From assembly GCF_002224485.1 (NCBI RefSeq), contig NZ_CP022463.1, positions 2,555,990-2,619,989 of the forward strand: DNA of 64,000 nucleotides, written 5' to 3'. This stretch comes from Sinomonas sp. R1AF57 (GTDB taxonomy: Bacteria; Actinomycetota; Actinomycetes; Actinomycetales; Micrococcaceae). The translations under genes and the position numbers were made by a program. Shown piece by piece: positions 8,857 to 62,065 of this stretch. The notes under the pieces are model-generated. The model saw nothing but the letters and a program-made list of their open reading frames with translations. It made no database searches and was not told where the DNA came from. Positions within the stretch are counted from its first letter, which is position 1; every line of letters begins with the position of its first letter.

Positions 8857-9339
8857 TTTTACTCCTTACGTCTCGCCGGTTCTCGCACTGCGGTCCTGCT
8901 GCAGAGCGAGCCTTGCGGAACGGTTGATGGGGTGTCTCTCGACCCGCCTGGATGTCGCCAGAACGGGCCTGAATCGCCGTGCCACGCGCATGTGTCCCCT
9001 TCCTGCTGCGAGGAGCAGCGCCGGGGCGCTCCCCTTCGGCAGAAGGGCATTATGCGGTGGCACGATGGTTCACGAGGTTTGTCACGGCATGGCGAAGCCA
9101 GCCGTACAAGCTCAATATCGTACCACGCCGCCGCTGTCCACCCCGCATCGCCGAGGGGCCGGGGCCGTGCCCGCTAGAAGTCACGTTCTCATCGGGAAGT
9201 CGCCGTCACAGCCACTCCCGGCGCGGAACCCGACTCCCCCGCGTCGGATCTTCCCTCACCAGCTTCCCGGGCCCGCGCGTTGTCCACATGGCCCCCCGCT
9301 CGCATGCGCCCTCGCGAGCGGTGCGCCGATGCTCGGTCC
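8857..9339. other. Non-coding gap between rplN and the AbiEi-like gene; presumed spc promoter region
   Basis: No convincing gene is present. It must hold the minus-strand promoter for rplN-rplO and a plus-strand promoter for the 9340 gene. On the minus strand, CATAAT (9049-9054) could be a -10, but no good -35 is placed correctly. The base composition is a little less GC-rich around 9060-9130. Confidence 0.4.
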
Positions 9340-10377
9340 ATGGACACCATGAACGGGCTCTACGACGCTGCCTTCGCGTTCGCGCGGATCCCTCCCCCGA
9401 ATGCGTCCCGGGCCTTCGCTCGGGGCGACCTCGTGCGCCTGCGTCGAGGCGCCTATGTGCCCACGGAGCTGTGGGTGCTGCTCGACGCCCCGTCCCGGTT
9501 CGCACTCGCAGCTGCCGTGCACGCCTGGTTCGTGCCCGGTGCCGTCTTCTGCGGCGAGACATCGCTCTTCCTCCGCGGGCTCCCCGTCGTCAGGACGCCG
9601 ACAGCCATAGACGTGGCTGTCGGAACGAACGCCCAGCTGGGCACACGCCCTCCGACCTTCGAGGCACGCGGTGACACCGATGTGGCACGGCGGGCGCGGA
9701 CGCTCGCCCCGCCCCCTGTGCGGAGGCACCGCCATTCGCCCCTGGTCGCCGAGGCCGTCGGAACGCTGGATTGCATCCCGGCCCCCGACGCCCTCGTGGA
9801 GGTTCTGGCGTCGGCGAAGTTCGCGCGAGCGCTCACGGTCGCCGACGGAGTCCTCCGCCTCGACCCGGCGCAGCCACTTCTGGACAGGACACCGGTGGCC
9901 GACGCCATCGCCCGGCTCACTTTCAGGTCGCAGCGCGAGAGGGCGCAGAGCCGCGCACTGCTGGCACGCGCAGGTGCGGAATCTCCCGGTGAGTCCGTCA
10001 GCCGTGCGCTCGTGCTCATGTGGGGGTTCCCGGAGCCCGCACTCCAGACCGAATACAGGGACAGCCCGGGCCTCATCGGATTCGCGGACTTCACCTGGCA
10101 CAGCCCCTTGGTACCGCAGTCCCCTTCTGGGCGGGACCGGCTCGGCGAGTTCGACGGATGGGGCAAGTACCTCGACACTCGACTCACCCATGGGGAGGAT
10201 GCCGTCTCTGGGCTTCAGCGTGAGAAGCAGCGTGAGAACCGCCTGCTCGCGCTCGGGCATCCCGTGCTCCGCTGGGACTGGGCAGACCTCGAGCGGCAGG
10301 CGCGGTTCCGCGCGAAGCTCGTCACGTTCGGCCTCGTCCCGACGAGAAGTGCCGCTTTCATCCAGAAGTGCGCGTGA
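9340..10377 (+). CDS. AbiEi-antitoxin-like winged-helix protein with predicted nuclease-fold C-terminus; no partner
   Basis: About 345 aa. The N-terminus (FARGDLVRLRRGAYVP) resembles the winged-helix domain of AbiEi-type antitoxins, proteins that usually bind DNA. The C-terminal third has FADFTW, GEFDGWGKY and EKQRENRLLALGH, a D...E-x-D...K pattern like PD-(D/E)XK or Vsr/DUF559-like nuclease folds. No AbiEii nucleotidyltransferase partner is adjacent, so a toxin-antitoxin role is not supported. The gene lies on the opposite strand inside the S10-spc block, suggesting insertion. The start is uncertain: ATG 9340, 9349 or an upstream 9280; no clear Shine-Dalgarno decides. Its last codons overlap one arm of an inverted repeat (10346-10413). 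Confidence 0.7.
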   Translation: MDTMNGLYDAAFAFARIPPPNASRAFARGDLVRLRRGAYVPTELWVLLDAPSRFALAAAVHAWFVPGAVFCGETSLFLRGLPVVRTPTAIDVAVGTNAQLGTRPPTFEARGDTDVARRARTLAPPPVRRHRHSPLVAEAVGTLDCIPAPDALVEVLASAKFARALTVADGVLRLDPAQPLLDRTPVADAIARLTFRSQRERAQSRALLARAGAESPGESVSRALVLMWGFPEPALQTEYRDSPGLIGFADFTWHSPLVPQSPSGRDRLGEFDGWGKYLDTRLTHGEDAVSGLQREKQRENRLLALGHPVLRWDWADLERQARFRAKLVTFGLVPTRSAAFIQKCA

Positions 10378-10413
10378 CCGCGACTTCCGGTGCGCACGGG
10401 CACTCTTCGTCGC
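10346..10413. repeat. REP-like inverted repeat at the 3' end of the AbiEi-like gene
   Basis: The left arm begins GAGAAGTGCC in the final codons of the gene, and the right arm is GCACGGGCACTCTTCGTCG. The arms match with two differences over about 14 bp. The right-arm motif GCACGGGCACTCTTCGTC recurs exactly at 53914-53931, in a longer palindrome between two unrelated genes, so this is a dispersed sequence and not gene-specific. Confidence 0.5.
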
Positions 10414-10577: not shown

Positions 10578-10892
10578 TTACTTGGCCTTCTCGAGGATCT
10601 CCACGAGACGCCACCGCTTGGTGGCGGACAGCGGGCGGGTCTCCGCGATGAGAACGAGGTCGCCGATGCCGGCGCTGTTGTTCTCGTCGTGGGCCTTGCG
10701 CTTCTCGGTGCGGCGGATGACCTTGCCGTACAGCGAGTGCTTCACGCGGTCCTCGACCTCGACGACGATCGTCTTGTCCATCTTGTCGGACACGACGTAG
10801 CCGCGGGCGGTCTTGCGGTAACCGCGCTGGCGCTCGGCGGCGGCGTTCTCCGTCACGGAGTTCTCCGTCACCTTGTTCTCCTGATCGCTCAC
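10578..10892 (-). CDS. rpsQ: 30S ribosomal protein S17
   Basis: 104-aa primary 16S rRNA-binding protein. After an N-terminal extension ([19 protein letters not shown]) the S17 core reads [15 protein letters not shown], then [20 protein letters not shown]. It overlaps the rpmC stop by 4 bases and is the last gene of the S10 run, followed by a hairpin. Confidence 0.97.
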
Positions 10893-27005: not shown

Positions 27006-27135
27006 CCGCCGAAGTAACCTCTGGTGGGCGCGAGGTCACCCCTAGTGGGCGCGAGGTCACCCCTGCGGAAAGAAGGAGGGGTGACCTCGGCGCCACAGGG
27101 GGTGACCTCGGCGCCACACGGGGTGACCCCGGCGG
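27006..27135. repeat. Inverted 21-bp-unit element, copy A (between rpoC and rpsL)
   Basis: The left half has three reverse-oriented units (GCGAGGTCACCCCTAGTGGGC type). After a short centre near AAAGAAGGA, three forward units follow (GGGGTGACCTCGGCGCCACA type). The outer ends are CCGCCGAAGT and CCCCGGCGG, an imperfect terminal inverted repeat. The two halves could fold into one long hairpin. Bases 26707-27005 contain no gene and should hold the rpsL promoter, which I could not place. Confidence 0.85.
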
Positions 27136-36248: not shown

Positions 36249-36743
36249 GTGACGCACGACGGCGCCCCTCCCCCGGGCGCAGACGGCCACGCCCGCTTCC
36301 TGGCGGCCGCGCGGCAGCACGGGATCGACGTGGAGGTGGCCGACCGCGGCCGTGCCCGCAGCCTCGAGGAAGCCGCTGCGAACCTGGGGATCTCGCCGCG
36401 GGAGGTCGTGAAGTCCCTCGTGGTAAAGCGGCCGGACGGGACGTTCCTGTTCGCCCTCATCCCGGGCGACCGGCAGATCTCTTGGCCCAAGCTGCGCGCG
36501 CTGCTGGGGGTGAACCGGCTCTCGATGCCCCCGGCCGACGTCGCGCTCGCGGCCACGGGGTACGAGCGCGGGACGATCACTCCCCTGGGGTCCACCACGG
36601 TCTGGCCGGTCATCGCCGACGCGGCGATCAGCGGCAGGGTCTCGATGGGCGCGGGGGCGCATGGGCGCAGCGCGTTCGTGGATGCCGACCAGCTCGTGCG
36701 GGCCCTCGATGCGACGGTCGCGGACATCAGCGACCCCCTCTGA
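36249..36743 (+). CDS. ybaK: YbaK/EbsC-type aminoacyl-tRNA deacylase
   Basis: 164-aa protein of the YbaK/ProX fold, which hydrolyses misacylated tRNAs such as Cys-tRNA-Pro. Segments REVVKSLVVKRPDGTFLFAL, DRQISWPKLRALLG and GTITPLG are family-like; the Lys of VVKSLV is the usual functional residue. The start is GTG 36249, with no strong Shine-Dalgarno, so it may be translationally coupled to the thiolase. Substrate tRNA is unknown. Its stop lies 6 bp before a 21-bp repeat array. Confidence 0.88.
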   Translation: MTHDGAPPPGADGHARFLAAARQHGIDVEVADRGRARSLEEAAANLGISPREVVKSLVVKRPDGTFLFALIPGDRQISWPKLRALLGVNRLSMPPADVALAATGYERGTITPLGSTTVWPVIADAAISGRVSMGAGAHGRSAFVDADQLVRALDATVADISDPL

Positions 36744-36749
36744 AGCAAC

Positions 36750-36849
36750 GGGGTGACCTCGGCACCACACGGGGTGACCTCGCGCCCACACGGGGTGACC
36801 TCGGCACCACACGGGGTGACCTCGCGCCCACACGGGGTGACCTCGGCGG
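36750..36849. repeat. 21-bp tandem array, copy B (one-sided)
   Basis: Forward units begin at 36750, 36771, 36792, 36813 and 36834, exactly 21 bp apart. Two unit types alternate: GGGGTGACCTCGGCACCACAC and GGGGTGACCTCGCGCCCACAC (21 bases each, written here as positions 1-21 of the unit). The last unit ends in CTCGGCGG. Unlike the other copies there is no reverse-oriented left half. It lies between the convergent ybaK and rplL genes. Confidence 0.9.
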
Positions 36850-36864
36850 GGGATGGGACGCGGA

Positions 36865-52513: not shown

Positions 52514-53719
52514 ATGACCTCCGCCCGCATCTCCCAGCGCATCGGATCCATCGCCGAATCCGCCACCCTTGCTGTGGACGCGAAGGCGAAGGCCCTCAAG
52601 GCGGCCGGGCGCCCGGTGATCGGCTTCGGCGCGGGCGAGCCGGACTTCCCGACCCCCCAGTACATCGTCGATGCCGCAATCGAGGCGGCTCGCCAGCCCA
52701 AGTACCACCGCTACTCCCCCGCCGCGGGCCTCCCCGAGCTCCGCGAGGCCATCGCCGCGAAGACGCTCCGCGACTCCGGGTATGAGGCCGCCGCCAGCCA
52801 GGTCCTCGTGACCAACGGCGGCAAGCAGGCCGTCTACAACACGTTCGCCACGCTCCTCGACCCGGGCGACGAGGTCCTCCTCCCCACCCCGTACTGGACC
52901 ACGTACCCGGAGGCCATCCGCCTCGCCGGCGGCGTGCCCGTGGAGGTTTTCGCCGGACCCGAGCAGGGCTACCTCGTCACGGTGGACCAGCTCGAGGCCG
53001 CGCTGACCGAGCGCACCAAGATCCTCCTCTTCGTCTCGCCCTCGAACCCGACGGGCGCCGTGTACTCACCGGAGCAGGTGGCGGAGATCGGACGGTGGGC
53101 TGCCTCGAAGGGCCTCTGGGTCGTCACGGACGAGATCTACGAGCACCTCACGTACGACGGCGTCCCGTTCACCTCGATCGCGACCGCCGCCCCGGAGCTC
53201 GGCGACAAGGTCGTGATCCTCAACGGCGTCGCCAAGACGTACGCGATGACCGGCTGGCGGGTGGGCTGGATGGTCGGGCCCGCCGACGTGATCAAGGCCG
53301 CCACGAACCTGCAGTCCCATGCCACGAGCAACGTCGCGAACGTCTCGCAGATGGCCGCTCTCGCCGCGGTGTCCGGACCGCTGGACGCGGTCCAGGAGAT
53401 GAAGGCGGCCTTCGACCGCCGCCGCCAGACCATGGTGAAGATGCTCTCGGAGATCGACGGCGTCAACTGCCCGACGCCGAAGGGCGCCTTCTACGTCTAC
53501 CCGGATGTCCGCGGCCTCCTGGGCAAGGAGATCGCCGGGGTCCGCCCCGCCACCTCGGCCGAGCTCGCGGCGCTCATCCTCGACAAGGTCGAGGTGGCGA
53601 TCGTCCCCGGCGAGGCCTTCGGCCCGAGCGGCTTCGTGCGCCTCTCCTACGCGCTCGGCGACGCCGACCTCGCCGAGGGCGTGGGCCGGATCCAGGAGCT
53701 CATCGGCACCGCCAAGTAG
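52514..53719 (+). CDS. Pyridoxal-phosphate class I aminotransferase (aspartate aminotransferase type)
   Basis: 401 aa. The PLP-binding Lys is in [16 protein letters not shown]; earlier motifs are [34 protein letters not shown] and [13 protein letters not shown]; the substrate-binding Arg is in SGFVRLSYA. These match type Ib aspartate aminotransferases, which interconvert aspartate and 2-oxoglutarate with oxaloacetate and glutamate. AAAGGA lies 7 nt before ATG 52514. It is monocistronic; the 3' end is 25 bp from a repeat element. Confidence 0.92.
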
Positions 53720-53744
53720 CCTGCGGCAGGGCGGCACGCCCAAG

Positions 53745-53828
53745 CCGCCGAAGTCACCCCTTGTGGGCCCGAGGTCACCCCGTGTGGGCCCGAAGTCACC
53801 CCGTGTGGGCCCGAAGTCACCGCGTGCC
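53745..53828. repeat. 21-bp tandem array, copy C (reverse-oriented left half)
   Basis: Starts with CCGCCGAAGTCACCCC. AAGTCACC/AGGTCACC cores begin at 53751, 53772, 53793 and 53814, exactly 21 bp apart, with linker TTGTGGGCCCG or GTGTGGGCCCG. The orientation is opposite to the array at 54034-54110, so the two form the arms of one 366-bp inverted element. Confidence 0.9.
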
Positions 53829-53865
53829 GGCACTCCGATCGGGAGAAGAACCTCCGGCCGCACCA

Positions 53866-53928
53866 GAAGTGCCCGTGTCATCCATGAGTGGCGGTTTGCT
53901 CAACTTATGGATGGCACGGGCACTCTTC
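53866..53928. repeat. REP-like palindrome inside the composite element
   Basis: GAAGTGCCCGTGTCATCCAT (53866-53885) and ATGGATGGCACGGGCACTC (53907-53925) are inverted with one mismatch and a small bulge, around a 21-nt loop. Right-arm sequence recurs at 10396-10412. It has no coding function that I can see. Confidence 0.75.
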
Positions 53929-54033
53929 GTCCAAGCCGGCCTCCTCCACGCTGTTCCGGGCGCACGACGGCGAGTGGTCGCCTGACGTGAGTTCGGCGCC
54001 CAGGCCGCCACGCGACGTCGTGCGTCCCGTGAA

Positions 54034-54110
54034 GGTGACCTCGCGCCCACACGGGGTGACCTCGCGCCCACACGGGGTGACCTCGCGCCCACACGGGGTG
54101 ACCTCGGCGG
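54034..54110. repeat. 21-bp tandem array, copy D (forward right half)
   Basis: GGTGACCTCG cores begin at 54034, 54055, 54076 and 54097, with linker CGCCCACACGG. It ends GTGACCTCGGCGG, the terminal form seen in the other copies, 12 bp before the 3' end of the response-regulator gene. The stretch 53929-54033 between the palindrome and this array has no gene. Confidence 0.9.
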
Positions 54111-54122
54111 GGACGGGGGAGG

Positions 54123-54794
54123 TCACCAGATCCGGCGGTCGGCGGCCCAGCGCGAGAGCTCGTGGCGGTTGGCCAGCTGGAGCTTGCGCAGCACGGCGGA
54201 GACGTGCGTCTCGACCGTCTTGACCGAGATGAAGAGCTCCTTGGCGGTCTCCTTGTAGGAGTACCCCCGAGCGATGAGCCGCATGACGTCGAGCTCCCGG
54301 GCCGAGAGCTTCCCCAGGTCGTCGTCCGCGACGGCGGACGTGCCGAAGGCGTCGAGGACGAAGCCAGCGAGCCGCGGCGAGAACACGGCGTCGCCGCCTG
54401 CCACCCGCAGCACCGCGTCCGTGATCTCCGGCCCCGACGCCGTCTTCGTCACGTAGCCGCGGGCGCCCGCGCGGATGACGGCAACGACGTCCTCCGCGGC
54501 GTCGGAGACGCTCAGGGCCAGGAAGCGGACCTCGCCGAGGAGCGGCGCGCAGCGGGTGAGGACCTCGCGCCCGCCCCCGCCCAGGCCGCCCGGGAGGTGG
54601 ACGTCGAGCAGGACCACCTGCGGCCGGAGCCGCTCGATCGCCTCGACGGCCTGCTCGACCGTCCCCGCCTCGCCGACCACCTCGACCGCCTCTCCGAGGT
54701 CCGCCTTGAGGCCGGACCGGAAGATCGTGTGGTCGTCCACGATGACCACGCTCACCGGCGCAGGGCGGACTCCCCCCACGGCGTTCTCGCTCAT
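54123..54794 (-). CDS. NarL/LuxR-type response regulator (LiaR/DesR-like)
   Basis: 223 aa. The receiver domain has VDDHTIFRSGL, the phospho-acceptor Asp in VVLLDVHLPGG, a Ser in LALSVSD and Lys in GYVTKTAS. The HTH at the C-terminus reads LSARELDVMRLIARGYSYKE and VKTVETHVSAVLRKLQ. It overlaps the kinase gene by 4 bases, so the two are coupled. The neighbouring PspC/LiaF-like proteins suggest an envelope-stress regulon; that is inference. Confidence 0.94.
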   Translation of the reverse strand: MSENAVGGVRPAPVSVVIVDDHTIFRSGLKADLGEAVEVVGEAGTVEQAVEAIERLRPQVVLLDVHLPGGLGGGGREVLTRCAPLLGEVRFLALSVSDAAEDVVAVIRAGARGYVTKTASGPEITDAVLRVAGGDAVFSPRLAGFVLDAFGTSAVADDDLGKLSARELDVMRLIARGYSYKETAKELFISVKTVETHVSAVLRKLQLANRHELSRWAADRRIW

Positions 54795-61924: not shown

Positions 61925-62065
61925 CCGCCGAGGTCACCCCCACTGGCGCCGAGATCACCCCTCGTGGAGCGATCTCGAGCCCAGTAAGGGTGACCTCGGC
62001 GCCACATCCGGTGACCTCGGGCACAGACGGGGTGACCTCGGGCGCAGACGAGGTGACCTCGGCGG
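61925..62065. repeat. Inverted 21-bp-unit element, copy E (pfkA-GNAT / MFS gap)
   Basis: Left half: CCGCCGAGGTCACCCCCAC and one more degenerate reverse unit (GCCGAGATCACCCC). Right half: four forward units with cores GGTGACCTCG at 61989, 62010, 62031 and 62052. Right end GTGACCTCGGCGG. The element occupies nearly all of the 149 bp between the GNAT stop and the MFS stop. Confidence 0.88.

Follow-up and report, generated by a model that had tools for sequence, protein, structure and literature searches.

The 403-bp gap between an aminotransferase gene and a convergent LuxR-type response regulator gene in Sinomonas sp. R1AF57 holds several families of inverted repeats, and it raises the question of where these sequences came from and what maintains them. 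We addressed this question in the window (the whole stretch of 64,000 nucleotides that was analysed), in the genome to which it belongs (G000, with a chromosome of 3.94 Mb) and in sister genomes. The outer arms of the element are probably dispersed copies of a 21-bp tandem family that is kept up by one AbiEi/Vsr-like enzyme, encoded elsewhere on the chromosome.

Repeat families of the focal gap

The gap and its neighbours comprise the following features.

52514..53719, plus strand: aminotransferase gene, left convergent neighbour (DNA match in 15/15 Sinomonas genomes)
53748..53831, plus strand: left arm, four 21-bp units with the core GA[AG]GTCACC
53866..53928, no strand assigned: palindrome
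53958..54027, no strand assigned: hairpin of the CGCACGACGGCG family (motif also in the focal gap of G300 and G301)
54034..54110, minus strand: right arm, four inverted 21-bp units
54123..54794, minus strand: LuxR-type response regulator gene, right convergent neighbour

The original prediction described four 21-bp units opposing four inverted units around a central palindrome, and both were confirmed. Left-arm cores lie on the plus strand at 53750, 53771, 53792 and 53813, a spacing of exactly 21 bp, and right-arm cores on the minus strand at 54034, 54055, 54076 and 54097. The resulting inverted-repeat arms (53745-53821 and 54034-54110) are 77 nt long, 91% complementary and separated by 212 nt. 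The arms of the palindrome (53868-53889 and 53903-53924) are also 91% complementary, and its single-strand folding gave a z of -7.4. Two inverted copies of CGCACGACG had been proposed as well; the hairpin that bears them is present, with arms at 53958-53984 and 54001-54027, but its right copy occupies 54016-54024, a few bases from the proposed 54011. When secondary structure was predicted, the whole gap folded far beyond shuffled sequences on either strand (z about -14), but the single arms did no better than shuffles (z +0.5 and +1.3 for the two arms tested). Folding is confined to both arms jointly, or to the two inner elements, and the arms alone are not hairpins. No T-tract intrinsic terminator (GC hairpin with a T-run) was found within 53600-54200, and a search of plasmids and phages found no DNA match to the gap.

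Several repeat families do share this one gap, as had been claimed, but the composite is not conserved as a unit. The whole gap was read in seven sister genomes (G297, G298, G300, G302, G303, G304 and G306); the loci of G299, G305, G251, G307, G308 and G309 have the other orientation and were left out of this reading. Among the seven, G298 has a 14-bp-period array and G306 a 42-bp run that by eye comprises about three 14-bp units, G300 has the hairpin only, and the gap is 20 bp long in G304 and 55 bp in G303. Outside the seven, G301 shows the hairpin followed by an apparent insertion, and in G305 a 14-bp array is present in the gap. Thus the comparison with sister strains did not recover the composite, but its components recur, the arm family genome-wide and the CGCACGACGGCG hairpin in G300 and G301. 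In G297 and G302 (L100, L101) the gap carries an additional gene, roughly 900 bp long, that looks lipid/diacylglycerol kinase-like by its letters only. The syntenic stretch of G307 (L230 6942-7446) contains 32-bp arrays of 3.8 and 9.9 copies that include GGGGGTCACC and GGTGACCCC.

The idea of a special, one-off assembly was not borne out, since the arm family is dispersed across the genome. In the window the core GARGTCACC was counted 25 times where 1.7 would be expected, and the tandem pattern GTCACC-N15-GTCACC gave 187 pairs in G000 (79 + 108) compared with 3 for a reversed-pattern control. Among the pairs listed, none on either strand fell in G000:C1:1490000-1940000, and both strands are represented beyond that region. 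Named matches to a strict two-unit pattern came from Sinomonas sp. ASV486 only (four stretches), a search from which records of G000 itself were possibly excluded. The window holds three further arrays of the family.

27010..27134, no strand assigned: second two-armed array, beside the 3' end of rpoC
36743..36851, minus strand: one-armed array in a convergent gap, with a 42-bp higher-order repeat
61930..62060, no strand assigned: fourth array, in a convergent gap

We sampled 26 array sites of G000, from 20 fetched regions and the window. Six lie inside genes, namely dnaX, an hrpA-type helicase gene, moeA, mazG, tilS and a tetR-type gene. All six keep the reading frame open, in various frames, with two running with the coding strand and four against it. 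Because arrays occur inside genes and in both orientations, the 21-bp unit is neither purely a 3'-end signal nor tied to one RNA strand. The moeA array is absent from all 13 aligned sister sequences, which have a short variable loop at that place. The empty moeA site of G301, a genome of a different core type, contains a single pre-existing core, and this one case fits seeding of arrays at chance cores. A CRISPR array has constant repeats and unique spacers; here, within an array, the sequences that separate the cores resemble one another, and a CRISPR-like reading was set lower.

The array-flanked gene and its product

One gene of G000 is itself enclosed by the family.

G000:C1:1997304-1998269, outside the window: partner gene, 321 aa, AbiEi-like part plus Vsr/I-Bth0305I-like nuclease domain

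The partner gene lies between the isopropylmalate dehydrogenase gene (leuB) and a glycosyltransferase gene, with inward-facing arrays of the 21-bp unit on both sides. It was found through these arrays; a PF04480 search missed it, its DUF559 score of 12.9 bits falling under the 20.6-bit cut-off that other Sinomonas AbiEi/DUF559-type genes pass. Protein searches identified orthologues with 66-77% identity in 8 of 15 Sinomonas genomes (G000, G251, G299, G301, G302, G305, G306 and G307), and all other homologues were at most 41% identical. Inverted tandem arrays stand on both sides of the gene in 8/8 orthologues, with a period of 21 bp (one of the 16 arrays was called as 20 bp). In an alignment test of the flanks with a threshold of 44, six of the eight passed in inverted orientation and the other two scored 33 and 42. 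The neighbours are leuB and either the glycosyltransferase gene or metG, and no adjacent AbiEii toxin gene was present at the locus. Phage records gave one match at 32%, and viral contigs gave none.

The AlphaFold model of the protein, built on 23 homologues, had a pLDDT of 84.9. In this predicted model, residues 210-316 matched the catalytic domain of I-Bth0305I (3r3p; Z 13.1, 97/97 residues, rmsd 2.4) and DNA-bound Vsr (1cw0; Z 11.4), and residues from about 8 to 205 matched the AbiEi antitoxin (6y8q; Z 12.3) and Rv2827c (Z 10.4), in a second PDB comparison that ranked Foldseek's own matches only. Foldseek itself placed AbiEi first (E 1e-6), with modest values for the nuclease domain (I-Bth0305I, 4e-3; Vsr, 7e-3). 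A sequence search of the PDB returned one match (E 0.97), and Pfam, read up to an E-value of 1, returned AbiEi_4 and a weak DUF559 and no transposase. Of the putative catalytic residues, E213, D244 and K261 do not vary among the 23 aligned homologues, and E255 hardly varies.

Similar bracketing extends to more distant genes. Repeats in the flanks, inverted or direct, accompanied 14 of 18 AbiEi paralogues with 33-39% identity compared with 0/119 isolated control genes; the set had 22 loci, of which L277, L279, L293 and L294 were left out, and all controls in this test together gave no inverted and two direct cases in 371. For DUF559, 30 loci from 50 matches were tested, and 9 were over the threshold of 44 with inverted repeats and 13 with inverted or direct repeats, against 0 and 1 of 202 controls. 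Several of these genes (L261, L245, L246 and L258) are bracketed by inverted arrays of 21, 14 and 22 bp. Additionally, from seven plasmid-collection records that contain distant homologues we fetched five (Arthrobacter, 2; Tsukamurella, 2; Collinsella, 1), and all five genes (L368-L372) had flank repeats, which were inverted in four cases and solely direct in the fifth. In three cases the repeat is found again in its own organism, at 20 places in eight Tsukamurella records, at 7 in Collinsella and at 10 in Arthrobacter, counts that include the query's own place and in which palindromes may count twice. The focal gap of G298 is likewise filled by a 14-bp unit, which resembles that of L245. A guess that the 158 GTCACC pairs counted in G251 go with the array flanking L261, the second DUF559 gene of this genome, found no confirmation: in a sample of 10 loci from G251, L261 alone carries them.

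The DnaA-box-like motif TTRTCCACA was found between 150 bp upstream of the start and 30 bp inside it in 8/8 orthologues, in 14/18 paralogues and in an AbiEi-like gene of the window (23/27 overall), compared with 0/607 control-gene starts. This window gene also bears on the inner palindrome of the focal gap.

9340..10377, plus strand: AbiEi-like gene, different family (PADLOC AbiEi, E 5e-7; Pfam AbiEi_4 under its cut-off; TTGTCCACA at 9280-9288)
10342..10411, no strand assigned: relative of the focal palindrome, which overlaps the AbiEi-like gene at its 3' end

The relative is the second match of the palindrome in the genome (73% identity, E 7e-5), and no other was found. Because a further AbiEi-like gene has its 3' end within this relative, the focal composite may consist of copies from two AbiEi-linked repeat families plus an older hairpin, a suggestion based on one match. 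The gene at 9340..10377 is a candidate partner of the palindrome family. It lies antisense between the genes for ribosomal proteins L14 (8488-8856) and S17 (10578-10892).

Co-occurrence, co-variation and loss

A search with one fixed core had suggested that the 21-bp family was limited to the two Sinomonas genomes of the sample searched. This was rejected as an artefact of that core, as the orthologous dnaX and hrpA arrays differ: in sister species the linkers of these genes have 21-bp repeats in the same position, built on other cores.

G251, dnaX array core: CGAGGTGGGGG
G301, dnaX array core: CGAGGTTGGGG
G302, dnaX array core: CGAGGTCGGGG
G307, hrpA array core: CGACATCGGG

The own core of the G000 enzyme is GAGGTCACC, and GAGGTGGGG and GAGGTCGGG represent a sister core. 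The GTCACC pair pattern with GAR before the second copy gave 168, 121, 106 and 61 pairs in four of the eight gene-bearing genomes and 0-13 elsewhere in Sinomonas (G251, 13; the gene-lacking G304 and G300, which retain 6 and 5; the rest at most 2). From the orthologue, dnaX and hrpA arrays of G251, G301, G302 and G307 a second core was predicted before the genome-wide search, a prediction that was partly non-blind in that one or two arrays per genome had been seen beforehand. The pattern GARRTNGGG-N12-GARRTNGGG then gave 125 pairs in G251, 89 in G302, 49 in G301 and 47 in G307, with 0-3 in the other 11 Sinomonas genomes and 0-2 in 103 other genomes, five of which had any.

Abundant cognate arrays were therefore seen in 8/8 gene-bearing and 0/7 gene-lacking Sinomonas genomes. 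The chance of this division is 1 in 6435; it becomes 1 in 3432 when G305 and G306, two of the 15 genomes that are near-identical in the proteins compared, are counted as one. On a four-protein species tree the label of gene plus arrays requires at least three changes (five by parsimony), and 288 of 500 shuffles were as low; the label is unclustered, and therefore the co-occurrence does not come from counting a single clade repeatedly. On the enzyme tree the three core types each form one group with two changes, the minimum, which only 3 of 200 shuffles equalled; tree support is strong for two core types and weak (75/79) for the GTCACC type. G251 and G301 share an enzyme clade and a core, whereas the species tree puts G301 in a supported clade without G251.

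Loss gave a corresponding picture. In G298 and G300, which are close to the gene-bearing G299, leuB stands directly beside the glycosyltransferase gene with gaps of 79 and 115 bp, and the G298 gap retains an apparent half unit. In G304 the gene body is deleted and the promoter box, start codon and fragments of both arrays are retained. Among the other four gene-lacking genomes an empty locus was seen in G309 only, with a metG-leuB gap of 117 bp and no partner gene; the stretches taken from G308 and G303 yielded no leuB. Of two G299 array sites, one corresponds to a two-unit stretch in G298 and the other to none, and G300 has none at the one readable site. Such sparse sites could be remnants, or sites that never held more, and the array-free sites of G298 and G300 might never have had arrays. 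Both genomes retain the hrpA array without the partner gene. Together the results show that the orthologous gene and its cognate arrays occur together and are scarce or lost together, and that the core changes with the enzyme.

Array length also varies between close relatives. We paired 21 of 25 fetched G306 regions with G305 regions (flanks 95-99% identical), and unit number differed at 17 of the 21 orthologous sites. At one of them (L337 and L357) the site is two-armed in G306, and G305 is without the interior and most of one arm, the junction GAGGTC/ACCTC falling within the core. A clean insertion polymorphism with target-site duplication was not found.

Origin of the arrays and relation to known systems

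One alternative holds that the protein is a DNA-binding regulator or chromosome organiser whose selected sites are the arrays, that its nuclease is idle, and that the arrays spread by selection and slippage. The exact 21-bp spacing, equal to two helical turns, speaks for it, as do the co-occurrence and co-variation of gene and arrays and the fact that all 24 two-armed arrays face inward and none outward (nine in G000, eight in G306 and seven in G305, which are not independent, as many G305 and G306 sites are orthologous). However, helical phasing is not general because the units of other DUF559-linked families measure 14 and 22 bp. Furthermore, arrays inside genes run in both orientations, and an idle nuclease sits poorly with the putative catalytic residues E213, D244 and K261 being invariant, and E255 nearly so, in 23 aligned homologues. 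We consider this reading unlikely.

It is less probable still that the arms are ordinary bidirectional terminators or mRNA-end hairpins with no enzyme partner. The G000 sites comprised 13 in convergent gaps, 6 in tandem gaps, 1 in a divergent gap and the 6 inside genes, by a gene caller trained on window genes; convergent gaps thus take 13 of the 20 intergenic arrays, whereas in 51 sister stretches convergent neighbours make up 87 of 746 pairs (570 tandem, 89 divergent). This bias and the strong folding of the whole focal gap (z about -14) are what terminators would lead one to expect. Against this, 17 of the 26 sampled arrays are one-armed and the two arms tested folded no better than shuffles; 6 of 26 lie inside genes, the focal region lacks a T-tract terminator, and the link to the gene is left unexplained. 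Finally, passive minisatellites that arise by replication slippage and gene conversion, with a chance association to the gene, would have units alike within an array and copy numbers that vary between close genomes, as seen here, but are very hard to reconcile with the 8/8 versus 0/7 co-occurrence over at least three separate changes, with inverted arrays at 8/8 gene copies when 0/119 isolated control genes are so flanked, or with a core matched to enzyme clade.

The evidence gives good support to a repeat-enzyme partnership like that of REP sequences and RAYTs, with an unrelated, homing-endonuclease-like enzyme. We infer that the arrays are propagated by cutting and repair. The N-terminal AbiEi-like part would bind the array core and the nuclease domain would nick or cut there, after which repair templated on another array would add or copy whole 21-bp units. 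Arrays would thereby spread and homogenise, being tolerated in 3' gaps and, because 21 bp is seven codons, in protein linkers. Without the enzyme they would shrink and vanish. At the focal gap, the arms would flank an older hairpin and, as a side effect, may also help to stop transcription that arrives from either side.

Bacteria often carry short dispersed repeats, many of them unaccounted for; to our knowledge, their known enzyme partner is the RAYT transposase. Rickettsia palindromic elements and mycobacterial MIRU, short repeats found in frame in genes or in tandem in gene gaps, resemble the 21-bp arrays by description, and we know of no comparable enzyme partner for them. The predicted C-terminal domain matches the Vsr-like (EDxHD) homing endonuclease I-Bth0305I over its full length (3r3p, Z 13.1), but in the Sinomonas protein it is joined to an AbiEi-like DNA-binding part, copying of introns or inteins was not seen, and the spreading sequence would be the array rather than the gene. 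Similarly, the N-terminal two thirds resemble the antitoxin of AbiE type IV toxin-antitoxin systems in fold (6y8q, Z 12.3) and in matches to AbiEi models, but the protein has an extra nuclease domain and no neighbouring toxin gene.

In REP/RAYT systems, the enzyme gene is flanked by inverted copies of a short dispersed repeat, repeat number tracks the cognate gene, and repeat and enzyme co-evolve (PMC2817692). The Sinomonas enzyme gene has inverted flank repeats in 8/8 orthologues, and repeat abundance tracks the cognate gene in the same way (8/8 versus 0/7 genomes). The two systems differ in that the Sinomonas enzyme is AbiEi/Vsr-like by Pfam and fold, not a Y1 (IS200/IS605-like) tyrosine transposase, and in that its unit is a non-palindromic 21-bp tandem repeat that also occurs in frame within genes. 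Caulobacter VsrA is a DUF559 protein of the PD-(D/E)XK Vsr-like type on which the DNA-damage response of methyltransferase-lacking cells depends; there it is tied to cytosine methylation and not to repeats (PMC12907096). No paper linking AbiEi/DUF559 proteins to dispersed repeats was among the matches listed from open-licence PubMed Central, judged by titles and abstract openings.

We see an even chance that the Sinomonas enzyme represents a wider actinobacterial class, in which an AbiEi-type DNA-binding domain joined to a Vsr/homing-endonuclease-like nuclease, in place of a transposase, would write and rewrite short repeats along the chromosome through breakage at specific sequences and templated repair. 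Its products would be tandem repeats of 14-22 bp or palindromes, including in-frame seven-residue repeats in essential genes, with a separate code for each enzyme lineage.

Overall, a second and unrelated enzyme family bears the same genetic signature as RAYTs, namely bracketing, co-occurrence, co-variation and co-loss, and therefore the origin of many actinobacterial repeats becomes testable. Such a partnership would give orphan AbiEi/DUF559-type proteins a role, and it points to a possible route by which a nuclease supplies proteins, DnaX and HrpA among them, with in-frame peptide repeats.
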